This document shows, one piece after another, positions 19,298 to 60,192 of a DNA stretch of 64,000 nt. The position numbers and the translations under genes were made by a program. Origin of the DNA: Nocardioides sp. QY071 (lineage in GTDB: Bacteria > Actinomycetota > Actinomycetes > Propionibacteriales > Nocardioidaceae). Where the stretch lies: positions 1,550,001 to 1,614,000 of the forward strand of contig NZ_CP124681.1 in assembly GCF_029961765.1 (NCBI RefSeq), read 5' to 3'. Within the stretch, counting starts at the first letter, position 1, and the number at the start of each line of letters is the position of its first letter. The notes below the pieces were generated by a model. The model was not told where the DNA came from. It saw only the letters and a program-made list of their open reading frames with translations, and did not search any database.

Positions 19298-19339
19298 ATG
19301 CATGACCTGCTTCTCGTACGCACCGGACGCGCCGGCTGA
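19298..19339 (+). CDS. ilvB leader peptide (13 aa, Leu-Leu-Leu-Val)
   Basis: The peptide MHDLLLVRTGRAG contains a run of branched-chain codons and is followed by a hairpin with T-run 42 nt later. The -10 box TACGGT (19286-19291) ends 6 nt before the ATG, so it is at the very start of the transcript. This is the standard arrangement for ribosome-mediated attenuation of ilvBNC by charged leucine/valine tRNA in actinobacteria. Confidence 0.85.
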   Translation: MHDLLLVRTGRAG

Positions 19340-19380
19340 TCCTGACCAGGACAATCCGTCAGTCAATCGCCAGCGCGTCC

Positions 19381-19413
19381 ACCCCTCGTTGCCCAGCAAC
19401 CGAGGGGTTTTTT
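19381..19413 (+). terminator. ilvB attenuator terminator
   Basis: Stem ACCCCTCG/CGAGGGGT (19381-19388 with 19401-19408), extended by GTTG/CAAC inside, and followed by six T. It lies between leader peptide and ilvB, the position of a regulated terminator. Confidence 0.85.
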
Positions 19414-19466
19414 GTTGAGTTACGACCAGCAGTTCAGCCCACCACAGCAGACAAGGAACGACTCGG

Positions 19467-21242
19467 ATGAGTGAGCAGCAGGGCTCGGGCGCCAATCCCA
19501 AGGCAGACGGCATCACCGGCGCGCAGAGCCTGGTCCGGTCCCTCGAGGCGGCCGGTGTCACCGACATCTTCGGCATTCCGGGCGGCGCGATCCTCCCGGC
19601 CTACGACCCGCTGATGGACAGCAGCATCCGCCACATCCTCGTGCGCCACGAGCAGGGTGCGGGCCACGCCGCGCAGGGGTACGCCGCCGCGTCCGGCCGG
19701 GTCGGCGTCTGTATGGCGACGTCCGGACCCGGTGCGACCAACCTGGTCACACCGCTCGCCGACGCCCACATGGACTCCCTGCCGATGGTCGCGATCACCG
19801 GCCAGGTCGGCGCCTCGCTGATCGGCACGGACGCCTTCCAGGAGGCCGACATCCGCGGCATCACGATGCCGATCACCAAGCACAGCTTCCTGGTGACCGA
19901 CCCCGCGGAGATCCCGACCAAGATCGCCGAGGCCTTCCACATCGCTTCCACCGGCCGCCCGGGCCCGGTCCTGGTCGACGTCACCAAGTCGGCGCTGCAG
20001 TCCAGCACCACCTTCCAGTGGCCGACCGAGCTCAACCTGCCCGGCTACCGCCCGGTGACCCGCCCGCACGCCAAGCAGATCCGCGAGGCCGCGCGCCTCA
20101 TGCTCGAGGCCCGCAAGCCGGTCCTGTACGTCGGCGGCGGCACCATCCGCTCCGGCGCCTCCAAGGAGCTGCTCGCCCTCGCCGAGCTCACCGGGATCCC
20201 GGTGGTCACCACGCTGATGGCGCGCGGCGCCTTCCCCGACAGTCACCCGCAGCACCTCGGGATGCCCGGCATGCACGGCACCGTGGCGGCCGTCGCGGCG
20301 CTGCAGAAGAGTGACCTGATCATCAGCCTCGGCGCCCGCTTCGACGACCGGGTCACGGGCAACCTCGACTCGTTCGCGCCCGGCGCCAAGGTGATCCACG
20401 CCGACATCGACCCGGCCGAGATCGGCAAGAACCGCTACGCCGACGTCCCGATCGTGGGCGACGTCCGCGAGGTCCTGGTCGACCTGATCACCACCCTGCG
20501 CACCGAGCAGGAGGCCGGCAACACCGGCGACTACGAGGGCTGGGTCGCGTTCTGCGCCGGCGTGAAGAAGAAGTACCCGCTCGGCTACGACCGCCCGGCT
20601 GACGGCGGCCTCGCGCCGCAGTACGTCCTCGAGCGGCTCGGTGCCATCTCGGGCCCCGACACGATCTACACCGCGGGCGTCGGCCAGCACCAGATGTGGG
20701 CCGCCCACTTCGTCGGCTACGAGCGCCCCAACACCTGGATCAACTCCGGCGGCCTCGGCACCATGGGCTTCTCCGTGCCGGCCGCGATGGGCGCGAAGGT
20801 CGCGATGCCCGACCAGACCGTGTGGTCGGTCGACGGCGACGGCTGCTTCCAGATGACCAACCAGGAGCTCGCCACCTGCGCGATCAACAACATCCCGATC
20901 AAGGTCGCGGTCATCAACAACGAGTCGCTCGGCATGGTGCGCCAGTGGCAGACGCTGTTCTACAACTCGCGCTACTCCAACACCGACCTGCACTCCAAGC
21001 GGATCCCCGACTTCGTGAAGCTGGCCGACGCCTACGGCTGCGTGGGCCTGGCCTGCGAGTCGCCCGACGACGTCGACGCGACCATCGCGAAGGCGATGGA
21101 GATCAACGACGTGCCCGTGGTCGTCGACTTCCGGGTCCACCGTGACGCCATGGTGTGGCCGATGGTCGCCGCCGGCACCAGCAACGACGACATCAAGTAC
21201 GCGCGCGACCTCGCGCCCCAGTTCGACGAGGACGATCTCTGA
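19467..21242 (+). CDS. ilvB: acetolactate synthase, large subunit
   Basis: A 591-residue ThDP enzyme making acetolactate or acetohydroxybutyrate from pyruvate, the first common step for valine, leucine and isoleucine. Visible motifs: [15 protein letters not shown], the catalytic Glu region [33 protein letters not shown], and the ThDP/Mg motif [18 protein letters not shown]...[22 protein letters not shown] precedes the ATG. Its stop overlaps the ilvN start (TGATG). Expression is probably attenuated by the leader at 19298. Confidence 0.97.
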
Positions 21243-21784
21243 TGGCCAAGCACACCCTGTCCGTCCTCGTCGAGGACAAGCCCGGCGTGCTGGCACGGAT
21301 CTCCGCGCTGTTCAGCCGCCGCGGCTTCAACATCGAGTCGCTCGCGGTCGGCCCGACCGAGCACGACGAGATCTCGCGGATGACGATCGTGGTCAACGTC
21401 GAGTCCTCGCCGCTCGAGCAGGTCACCAAGCAGCTCAACAAGCTGGTCGAGGTCATCAAGATCGTCGAGCTCGACCCGACCGCGTCGGTCAACCGCGAGC
21501 TGGTGCTCGTCAAGGTCGCCGCCACGGCGGAGACCCGCGGTGAGGTCCTCGACGTCGTCCAGCTGTTCCGGGCGAAGGTCATCGACGTCGCCTCGGACGC
21601 GATCACCATGCAGATCGTCGGGAACGACGGCAAGATCGCCGACTTCCTGCGCGTGCTGGAGCCCTTCGGGATCCGCGAGCTCGTGCAGTCCGGCATGGTG
21701 GCCATCGGCCGCGGGCCGCGCTCCATCTCGGAGCGCAGCAAGCCCGTCGCCGTACCGGTGCCGCCTGCCGCATCCGGAGGTTGA
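21242..21784 (+). CDS. ilvN: acetolactate synthase, small (regulatory) subunit
   Basis: A 180-residue subunit with an N-terminal ACT domain ([20 protein letters not shown]...[10 protein letters not shown]) for valine feedback inhibition and the C-terminal ALS_ss domain. It starts within the ilvB stop. The last codons and the stop (GGA GGT TGA) lie inside the dispersed repeat at 21779-21813, so this repeat supplies the 3' end of the gene; the family normally ends about here, so function should not suffer. Confidence 0.95.
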
Positions 21785-21813
21785 GGAGGTCGCGCAGCGA
21801 CCGTCTCGAAACC
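21779..21813. repeat. dispersed palindromic element, copy B
   Basis: Begins GGTTGAGGAGGTCGCGCAGC and ends CGTCTCGAAACC. The 31 nt from TTGAGG to CGAAA are identical to copy E in the cimA leader (58456-58486). It contains the internal inverted repeat GGTCGC/GCGACC. Located across the ilvN stop and the ilvN-ilvC spacer. Confidence 0.75.
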
Positions 21814-58376: not shown

Positions 58377-58425
58377 GCCTTGGACTCCGAGCCGGCGGAC
58401 CGGGCGTCCGTGGCACACTGACCTC

Positions 58426-58497
58426 GTGAGCACCATCACCGTGACGATCCTTGGATTGAGGAGGTCGCGCAGCGACCGTCTCGAAATCATTAGTTAG
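58426..58497 (+). CDS. cimA leader peptide (23 aa)
   Basis: Starts VSTITVTILGL and ends SDRLEIIS. Nine of the first eleven codons after the start region are Thr, Val, Ile or Leu, matching the products and precursors of the pathway. CACACT ends 6 nt before the GTG, so the transcript may start at this codon. Most of the second half is encoded by dispersed repeat copy E. Two hairpins and a T-run follow, before cimA. Confidence 0.8.
   Translation: MSTITVTILGLRRSRSDRLEIIS
58454..58488. repeat. dispersed palindromic element, copy E, inside the cimA leader peptide
   Basis: Contains TTGAGGAGGTCGCGCAGCGA and continues to CGTCTCGAAA; 31 nt are the same as copy B at the ilvN-ilvC junction. Internal arms GGTCGC/GCGACC. 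Confidence 0.75.
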
Positions 58498-58523
58498 CGC
58501 GTCCGACGCCCCGTCGGACGCGC
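58497..58523 (+). promoter_or_regulatory. first hairpin of the cimA attenuator
   Basis: Arms GCGCGTCCGAC (58497-58507) and GTCGGACGCGC (58513-58523), loop GCCCC. It begins at the last base of the leader stop, so a ribosome at the stop codon would block it. Confidence 0.65.
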
Positions 58524-58524
58524 C

Positions 58525-58554
58525 AGCCTCTCGTTGTCGGGAGGCTTTTGTTTT
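58525..58554 (+). terminator. cimA attenuator terminator
   Basis: AGCCTC (58525-58530) pairs with GAGGCT (58541-58546), followed by TTTTGTTTT. It lies 31 nt before the cimA start codon. Confidence 0.75.
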
Positions 58555-58584
58555 GCCCAGGTGACACCCAGCGAGAGAACCCCG

Positions 58585-60192
58585 ATGACCCAGCAGCTCG
58601 ACCTCCACGGCTCGTTCCACGTCTACGACACCACCCTGCGCGACGGTATGCAGCAGGAGGGGCTCAACCCCACGGTGGCCGACAAGCTCGCCATCGCGCG
58701 GCACCTGGACGGGCTCGGCGTCGGGTACATCGAGGGTGGCTGGCCGGGCGCCAACCCGAAGGACACCGAGTTCTTCCGCCGGGCGGCGCTCGAGCTGGAC
58801 CTCGAGCACGCCCGCCTCGCGGCCTTCGGCTCGACCCGCCGCGCCGGCCTGCTCGCGGCCGACGACCCGCAGGTCGCCGCGCTGCGTGACAGTGGTGCAG
58901 GCGTTGTCACACTGGTCGCCAAGTCGCACGTCGGCCACGTCGAGAAGGCGCTGCGGACCACGCTCGAGGAGAACCTCGCGATGATCCGCGACACCGTCTC
59001 CCACCTGCGGGCCGAGGGCCAGCAGGTGTTCCTCGACGCCGAGCACTTCTTCGACGGCTACCGGCTCGACCGGGCCTACGCGCTCGAGGTGCTGCGCACG
59101 GCGTACGACGCCGGTGCGGAGGTGGTCGCCCTATGCGACACCAACGGCGGCATGCTGCCGGGCTGGGTCTCCGACGTCGTGCACGACGTGCTCGAGACGA
59201 CCCAGGTCCGGGTCGGCATCCACTGCCACAACGACACCGGCCTCGCCGTCGCCAACACGCTGGCGGCCGTCGAGGCGGGCGCCACCCACGTCCAGGGCTG
59301 CATCAACGGCTACGGCGAGCGCACCGGCAACGCCGACCTCGTCAACGTCGTCGCCAACCTCGAGCTCAAGCTCGACCAGCAGGTGCTGCCGCCGGGCCTG
59401 CTCACCGAGGCCACCCGGATCGCGCACGCCGTCGCCGAGGTGACCAACGTGCCGCCCGCCGCGCGCCAGCCGTACGTCGGTGCCTCGGCCTTCGCCCACA
59501 AGGCCGGCCTGCACGCCAGCGCGATCAAGGTCGACCCCGACCTCTACCAGCACATGGACCCGGCCGGCGTCGGCAACGACATGCGCCTGCTCGTCTCCGA
59601 CATGGCCGGCCGCGCGACCATCGAGCTCAAGGGCAAGGAGCTCGGCTTCGACCTCTCCGACAACCCCGAGCTGGTCACCCGGGTGACCAACCGGGTCAAG
59701 GAGCTCGAGCTGAGCGGCTACACCTTCGAGGCCGCCGACGCGTCCTTCGAGCTGCTCCTCGCCGAGGAGGTGGACGGCCACCGGCCGTCGTACTTCGACG
59801 TCGAGAGCTGGCGCGTGATCACCGAGACGCTCACCCACGCCGCGCCGGGCGAGGAGGCCGTGTCCGAGGCGACCGTGAAGCTCACCGCGGCCGGCGTGCG
59901 CTACGTCGTGACGGGGGAGGGCAACGGCCCGGTCAACGCGCTCGACCAGGCGCTGCGCTCGGCGATCGAGCAGGCGTACCCGGAGATCGCGAAGTTCGAG
60001 CTGATCGACTTCAAGGTCCGCATCCTCGACCAGGGGCACGGCACCGACGCCATCACCCGCGTGCTCATCGAGACCACCGACGGGGCGTCCTCGTGGGTGA
60101 CCGTCGGCGTCGGCGCGAACGTGATCGAGGCGTCGTGGGAGGCGCTCGCGGACAGCCTCACCTACGGGCTGCTGCGGCACCACCAGGACTGA
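58585..60192 (+). CDS. cimA: citramalate synthase
   Basis: A 535-residue enzyme of the LeuA/HCS family: VYDTTLRDGMQQEGLNPTVADKLAIARHLDGLGVGYIEGGWPG, then HCHNDTGLAVANTLAAVEAGATHVQGCINGYGERTGNADL and FAHKAGLHASAIKVDP, and a C-terminal LeuA-type regulatory domain. GGWPGANPKD is the CimA form; IPMS has a different motif. It condenses pyruvate with acetyl-CoA to citramalate, the threonine-independent route to isoleucine, and leuB could serve this route too. ATG 58585 has GCGAGAG upstream. Control by leader-peptide attenuation is likely. Confidence 0.93.
   Translation: MTQQLDLHGSFHVYDTTLRDGMQQEGLNPTVADKLAIARHLDGLGVGYIEGGWPGANPKDTEFFRRAALELDLEHARLAAFGSTRRAGLLAADDPQVAALRDSGAGVVTLVAKSHVGHVEKALRTTLEENLAMIRDTVSHLRAEGQQVFLDAEHFFDGYRLDRAYALEVLRTAYDAGAEVVALCDTNGGMLPGWVSDVVHDVLETTQVRVGIHCHNDTGLAVANTLAAVEAGATHVQGCINGYGERTGNADLVNVVANLELKLDQQVLPPGLLTEATRIAHAVAEVTNVPPAARQPYVGASAFAHKAGLHASAIKVDPDLYQHMDPAGVGNDMRLLVSDMAGRATIELKGKELGFDLSDNPELVTRVTNRVKELELSGYTFEAADASFELLLAEEVDGHRPSYFDVESWRVITETLTHAAPGEEAVSEATVKLTAAGVRYVVTGEGNGPVNALDQALRSAIEQAYPEIAKFELIDFKVRILDQGHGTDAITRVLIETTDGASSWVTVGVGANVIEASWEALADSLTYGLLRHHQD

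Follow-up and report, generated by a model that had tools for sequence, protein, structure and literature searches.

The window analysed here, a stretch of 64,000 nucleotides from Nocardioides sp. QY071, contains on its forward strand cimA (58585–60192), the product of which is assigned as citramalate synthase by the equivalog model TIGR00977 (631.5 bits, cut-off 450). Upstream of cimA, on the same strand, a -10-like box, CACACT (58414–58419), marks a putative promoter, as read from the sequence and from its agreement with a conserved G[GTC]CANNNT box. It is separated by 6 nt from the GTG start of a leaderless leader ORF of 23 codons plus TAG (58426–58497), the frame of which is conserved. Two candidate regulatory Ile codons, ATC ATT (58486–58491), at a position conserved in the genus leaders, are located 5 nt 5′ of a hairpin, P1 (58497–58523), which is GCGC-clamped, contains 12 bp in the window, and is called from folding and covariation; its pairing begins at the G of the leader stop codon. 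P1 is followed by a terminator-like hairpin, P2 (58525–58546), and a U-tract (58547–58554) reading TTTGTTTT, both called from a terminator scan and covariation, and the ATG of cimA lies 30 nt downstream. A preliminary description had listed a leaderless short ORF, a hairpin beginning at its stop codon, and a terminator-like hairpin before cimA; all of these parts are found in the sequence, at the coordinates given there.

The terminator scan upstream of cimA gave one terminator-like site against 0.2 expected, and the fold z-score of the leader region, -4.18, was equalled in none of 200 shuffles. A simple scan of the same region returned no sigma-70-type promoter; hence, the promoter is called from the -10-like box, which is conserved, and from its spacing of 6–7 nt. 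No Rfam family, T-box and other cis-regulatory families included, was matched at gathering thresholds in the window, and in six loci the only Rfam matches were far below the gathering scores.

Conservation of the leader in the genus

The genus sample comprised 98 genomes, 91 with cimA at E ≤ 1e-100, and 90 upstream regions were read, with the exclusion of G031, in which only the C-terminal part of cimA matched, and of second copies in G004, G017, and G037. The seven genomes with no cimA match at this threshold are G018, G023, G036, G048, G062, G076, and G088, two of which are less than 90% complete. The preliminary description had proposed conservation of the leader in related genomes as its own check, and the element is present in 87 of the 90 regions, with two separate hairpins by folding in each of the 87. 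It is missing in L010, L013, and L164 (from G042, G035, and G027, respectively) though cimA is retained, from which it follows that the element is dispensable; these three are possibly natural deletions of the attenuator. A -10-like sequence persists, by eye, close to the cimA start in all three.

The leader stop is TAG in 86 of 87 genus elements, and the exception, L138, looks decayed. Among 86 leaders (the start was not found for L114), the length ranges from 7 to 23 aa, with 8–10 aa in 70. Counted back from the stop, codon -2 is Ile in 86/86 (ATT in 81, ATC in 5) and codon -3 in 81/86; the trailing Ile run consists of three codons in 57 leaders, two in 23, one in 5, and four in 1. ATT is rare, as the cimA ORFs that were read contain 854 Ile codons, only 10 of them ATT, and yet it is present within the last two Ile slots of 83/87 genus and 27/29 class elements. 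Rare regulatory codons occur in other attenuators as well. In a frame test, the start codon was placed from the -10 box alone and then checked against the Ile codons. Against one third expected, the two were in frame in 72 of the 74 genus elements and 19 of the 22 class elements that allowed the test, which 13 of 87 genus and 7 of 29 class elements did not. The G[GTC]CANNNT box with a start codon 6–7 nt downstream was likewise found in 72 of the 74 testable genus elements. Judged by sequence, a short leader ORF rich in codons of the end product, as in a trp-type attenuator, is present, and at this level the Ile-codon leader element before cimA is confirmed as real and strongly conserved.

Thr makes up 121 of 767 residues in the genus leaders but has no fixed place, and Thr sensing was rejected. 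The earlier proposal that the cimA leader also responds to Val and Leu, and perhaps Thr, is not supported, with none of these at a fixed position and Ile at -2 in 86 of 86; the places where Leu and Val codons do take the position of Ile are the leaders before ilvB, and, for Leu alone, before leuS. The description of the leader as rich in Thr, Ile, Val, and Leu stands for Ile, which is fixed and usually includes the rare ATT; the remaining composition is partly that of a repeat.

This repeat is a dispersed palindrome, an in-frame copy of which occupies 13 codons of the window leader on the forward strand (58450–58488, ends approximate), as judged from core matches and a consensus from the copies, approximately GGTGGTYGAGGAGGTCGCGCAGCGACCGTCTCGARACC. 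Its 27-base core (58458–58484) is found at 86 places in the genome at ≤3 mismatches, 21 of them exact and the leader copy included, while the reversed core pattern gave no place in the same search. Another copy in the window is located at 21783–21809. The leaders of close relatives are short, with 9 aa: MTTITGIIS (L004), MTTRTIIIS (L005), and MRTVTTIIS (L169). The 23-codon length of the window leader is therefore attributed to the in-frame repeat, and, as 13 of 23 codons belong to it, the Thr/Ile/Val/Leu composition is partly particular to this genome. The insertion preserves the leader frame, and Ile-Ile still adjoins P1. A 22-aa leader before cimA in L011, MTTITHPIGAPISAAITTGIIT, contains extra in-frame Ile codons and represents another in-frame expansion.

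Hairpin pairing and distribution of the element

The covariation alignment was derived from 50 non-redundant sequences of ≤95 nt, thinned by hand to 39 through removal of L034, L058, L024, L026, L029, L121, L128, L130, L144, L148, and L152. In these 39 sequences, pairing holds in 95.4% of cells and both partners vary in 12 of the 19 pairs, percentages that lean to regular stems because several of the removed sequences have long or irregular P1 tops. None of 500 shuffles reached either the pairing or the both-side-change value, and slid controls pair at 39–55%. The four basal pairs of P1 are invariant in 39/39. By its form and covariation, P2 would represent the intrinsic terminator before the structural gene that is expected of a trp-type system. 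Among 105 distinct elements, the P1 offset is constant at 5 nt past the last Ile codon in 98, and the gap between P1 and P2 is 0 nt in 36, 1 nt in 62, and 2 nt in 7, despite a P1 span that varies from 22 to 50 nt.

A covariance model of the element core, built on cimA elements and applied at E ≤ 0.001, matches 223 of 344 class genomes and 86 of 115 genera. From the best-scoring matches, 40 in the class and 20 in the phylum were picked by hand for variety, a selection that favours cimA since the model was built on it. The 40 class matches have cimA downstream in 37, spanning 22 family codes by our own count, and ilvB in 3; five of the 37 leaders before cimA contain a single Ile (L283, L296, L301, L308, and L316). 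The 57 loci from the model searches are followed by cimA in 44, ilvB in 8, and leuS in 4, with one (L227) lacking a gene call. A pattern scan of 51 of 80 loci found at least 29 elements, and missed L042, L046, and L062 though the element is visible there. Several families have their stop codon within the loop of P1, as in leaders reading MFYDLLIISRRAG and stop (L036) or MAQHLAIIIDERVG and stop (L078); the spacing from Ile to P1 is thus conserved, and the position of the stop is not. By eye, cimA lacks the element in L047, L049–L055, L057, L060, and L067, where coding sequence reaches the gene. In L081 and L082 (Nitriliruptoria), short ORFs with Ile runs upstream of cimA overlap a strong inverted repeat, and no U-tract terminator upstream of cimA was seen by eye; these are perhaps an older form without P2.

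In the phylum sample, 44 of 197 genomes match the model, 33 of them outside the class. The 20 out-of-class matches picked comprise 14 before ilvB and one before cimA (L362). L358 has the same layout, with a leader ending in SIVIIR and stop, before leuB (3-isopropylmalate dehydrogenase). Four further matches do not fit the reading: L365 before isocitrate lyase, without matching codons, L351 before a prephenate dehydratase ORF, and L368 and L369, which have no GCGC hairpin and are apparently spurious. L174 and L175, from the same genome as the window, contain two Ile codons and a TAGCGC pattern, and were discarded as no P1–P2 layout was seen.

Related leaders before ilvB and leuS

A related attenuator-like element precedes ilvB (acetolactate synthase; the ORF begins at 19467) in the same window, on the forward strand at 19298–19408, called from a weak match of the cimA-built model (E 0.067, 19362–19416) and from reading of the sequence. 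Its leader, read as MHDLLLVRTGRAG and stop, is located at 19298–19339, P1, assigned by eye, at 19326–19379, and the terminator-like hairpin at 19381–19408. Similar elements precede ilvB in 30 of 30 genus loci, and their leaders carry Ile or Leu, Leu, Val in 29 and Thr-Leu-Val in one, always ending in GTA. Before leuS, 28 of 30 leaders contain runs of Leu codons, 27 of them identified by script and L321 by eye, with L328 and L329 being the two without. The layout shared before cimA, ilvB, and leuS is a leaderless upstream ORF with branched-chain codons, hairpins, and a U-tract. One model finds all three, which may have a common ancestor or, as the features they share are short, may be convergent; in several genomes the cimA-built model retrieves the ilvB and leuS elements too. 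As the codons track the downstream gene, ribosome-mediated sensing of charged tRNA is supported, and this codon–gene match is the strongest sign that the reading of those codons plays a part.

The preliminary description held attenuation of cimA to be little described, and the literature searches agree: no report of a cimA attenuator was found in searches of open-licence literature, including under SCO5529, which we take to be cimA. Neither cimA nor citramalate occurs in PMC8079986, PMC11109978, or PMC13236596, and the available sections of PMC13158618 and PMC12452182 describe no cimA attenuator. The closest relatives are the Streptomyces leaders ilvL and leuL2, which precede ilvBHC and leuS (PMC8079986) and are likewise leaderless short ORFs with branched-chain codons, hairpins, and a U-rich stretch, ilvL reading MRTRILVLGKRVG and stop; Streptomyces ilvB and leuS leaders are also described in PMC1262725. 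The ilvB leader in L243 encodes the same peptide as Streptomyces ilvL, with a P1/P2 layout that is alike. The Streptomyces leaders target ilvB and leuS, whereas the cimA leaders carry Ile only and, in the genus, have the stop at the foot of P1. The ilvB-II motif, confined to Corynebacterium ilvB according to PMC10272879, resembles the cimA element in its upstream ORF with branched-chain codons, its stems P1 and P2, and the U-tract of P2. An antiterminator formed by the P1 loop and the P2 3′ side was proposed for it; the counterpart of this pairing in the cimA elements is without covariation. The LEU element before leuA, described in PMC1262725, contains leucine codons that pair with a downstream Shine–Dalgarno box in a pseudoknot, compared with the Ile codons and terminator of the cimA element.

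In M. tuberculosis, PMC13236596 describes an ilvB1 leader with a translated upstream ORF, an abundant short transcript, a terminator, and a drawn antiterminator. Its four branched-chain codons are needed for induction, which was abolished by the change of LVVI to AAAA; the gene is a different one and the likeness is by description. This leader is an experimental precedent for Ile-tRNA attenuation of cimA. Altering codons of the ilvB leader in S. coelicolor was without effect, according to work cited in PMC1262725, and this counts against such attenuation.

Folding tests, proposed mechanism, and alternatives

Folding at equilibrium, with a mask over the 5′ part to mimic a ribosome, at first suggested no antiterminator and was discarded, being uninformative since the E. 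coli controls were equally flat (0.94–0.99). In the replacement test, ribosome-masked folding is carried out before the P2 3′ arm is made; it is blind to pairing with that arm, which is covered by the swap test only. It was applied to 113 elements (85 genus and 28 class), with the exclusion of L138 (decayed), L058 (a same-genus genome in the other set), and L114. The E. coli leaders thrL, leuL, and trpL, which also have a short ORF with product codons before a terminator, served as controls. Sequestration of their terminator 5′ arm at the regulatory codons was 1.00, 0.85, and 0.62, respectively, against 0.01 at the stop, and antiterminators were recovered in 3/3 with a contrast of 0.61–0.98. 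Compared with this clear signal (0.62–1.00), the cimA elements gave none: in folding before the P2 3′ arm, 0 of 113 exceeded a contrast of 0.3, and the 5′-arm sequestration at the Ile codons versus the stop was 0.24 versus 0.30 in the 85 genus and 0.28 versus 0.40 in the 28 class elements. Single ilvB and leuS examples likewise showed no antiterminator in this test. The swap test covered 105 distinct of 114 elements (L138 and L058 excluded) and nine alternative pairings among the P1 loop, P1 arms, leader, and parts of P2. None was clearly better native than swapped, the lowest alternative being reached in 150 of 2000 permutations and the true P1 and P2 stems in 0 of 2000 each.

The pairing of P1, by contrast, is predicted to follow the ribosome. 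In the 85 genus elements, mean predicted P1 pairing falls from 0.99 when the A-site is 4 codons before the stop to 0.76 at 3 codons and 0.42 at 2 codons, and reaches 0.03 with the ribosome at the stop. Even with no ribosome on the leader, P1 is predicted to form.

We read the element as an attenuator of cimA transcription in which charged tRNA-Ile is sensed through the ribosome, with a probability of roughly 0.78 for Ile-tRNA-dependent attenuation as such. The leaderless transcript would start at or next to the GTG, and the ribosome would load on its 5′ end. With charged Ile-tRNA, the ribosome would clear the Ile codons, reach the UAG, and cover the 5′ arm of P1, and RNA polymerase would stop prematurely at P2. 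With scarce Ile-tRNA, the ribosome would stall on the Ile codons so that P1 can form directly behind the polymerase, termination at P2 would fall, and cimA would be made. How P1 lowers termination we infer from two properties: as its pairing changes with ribosome position, P1 would be the sensor hairpin, formed in starvation; as it abuts P2, it may act on termination directly. Because the search for a competing pairing gave none, our preferred last step, though held at less than even odds, is that P1 acts directly or sterically on the terminator it abuts. Since P1 forms without a ribosome too, such a step predicts read-through when the leader is untranslated, in which it differs from trp-type systems. 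Besides the ineffective codon changes in S. coelicolor, the single-Ile class leaders, the match before isocitrate lyase in L365, and the lack of a detected antiterminator count against Ile-tRNA attenuation.

The element may alternatively be a classical attenuator, with an antiterminator that escaped the tests, such as the weak pairing between P1 loop and P2 3′ arm proposed for ilvB-II. These parts show some complementarity, with a mean of -7.4 kcal/mol, P2 is weakened in 4 of 87 elements under some ribosome masks, and pairings of this kind are used in the ilvB-II model and in the C. glutamicum model, which posits competing hairpins (PMC11857589). However, the complementarity is no better native than swapped (917 of 2000 permutations are as low), its energy is about half of P2's own -14.65, and sequestration of the 5′ arm at the Ile codons was found in 0 of 113 elements against 3 of 3 E. 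coli controls, in a test blind to the 3′ arm; a missed antiterminator is accordingly unlikely. A less probable arrangement still is that P1 acts as a pause hairpin, where the ribosome catches up with RNA polymerase and its stalling or release alters termination through transcription–translation coupling. The gap of 0–2 nt would place P1 directly behind the polymerase as P2 is made, and the ribosome at the stop is predicted to melt it, but pausing alone does not explain the failure of P2 when the ribosome stalls. That no amino acid is sensed, and that the element is a partial terminator acting constitutively or a gene for a small RNA in which the ORF is incidental, is consistent with the three genus loci that dispense with it and keep cimA. 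Against this, the frame, the Ile codons, and the 5-nt distance to P1 are conserved across the class, and the codons differ according to the gene that follows, making a non-sensor very improbable.

Beyond cimA, the attenuation reading can be extended to an Actinomycetota-wide cassette shared by several branched-chain genes. Its exchangeable codons (Ile, Leu, or Ile/Leu/Val) would keep a constant, short spacing to a GC-clamped hairpin, which the ribosome position would form or melt; this hairpin, 0–2 nt from the terminator, would decide read-through at RNA polymerase with no competing antiterminator helix. Such generality is doubtful at present. If true, it could explain the puzzling results of codon changes in the Streptomyces ilvB leader. 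In addition, the lack of a detectable classical antiterminator makes the puzzle of Streptomyces leaders that resemble attenuators without behaving like them, as set out in PMC1262725, testable by reporters.

In the genome of Nocardioides sp. QY071, the threonine dehydratase model TIGR01127 gave no match over its cut-off (best 245 bits, cut-off 378.75). The same RNA layout with different codons before cimA, ilvB, and leuS provides a comparative series for the reading of charged tRNA in actinobacteria, and the cimA element is likely a control point of the threonine-independent isoleucine route in a large bacterial group.
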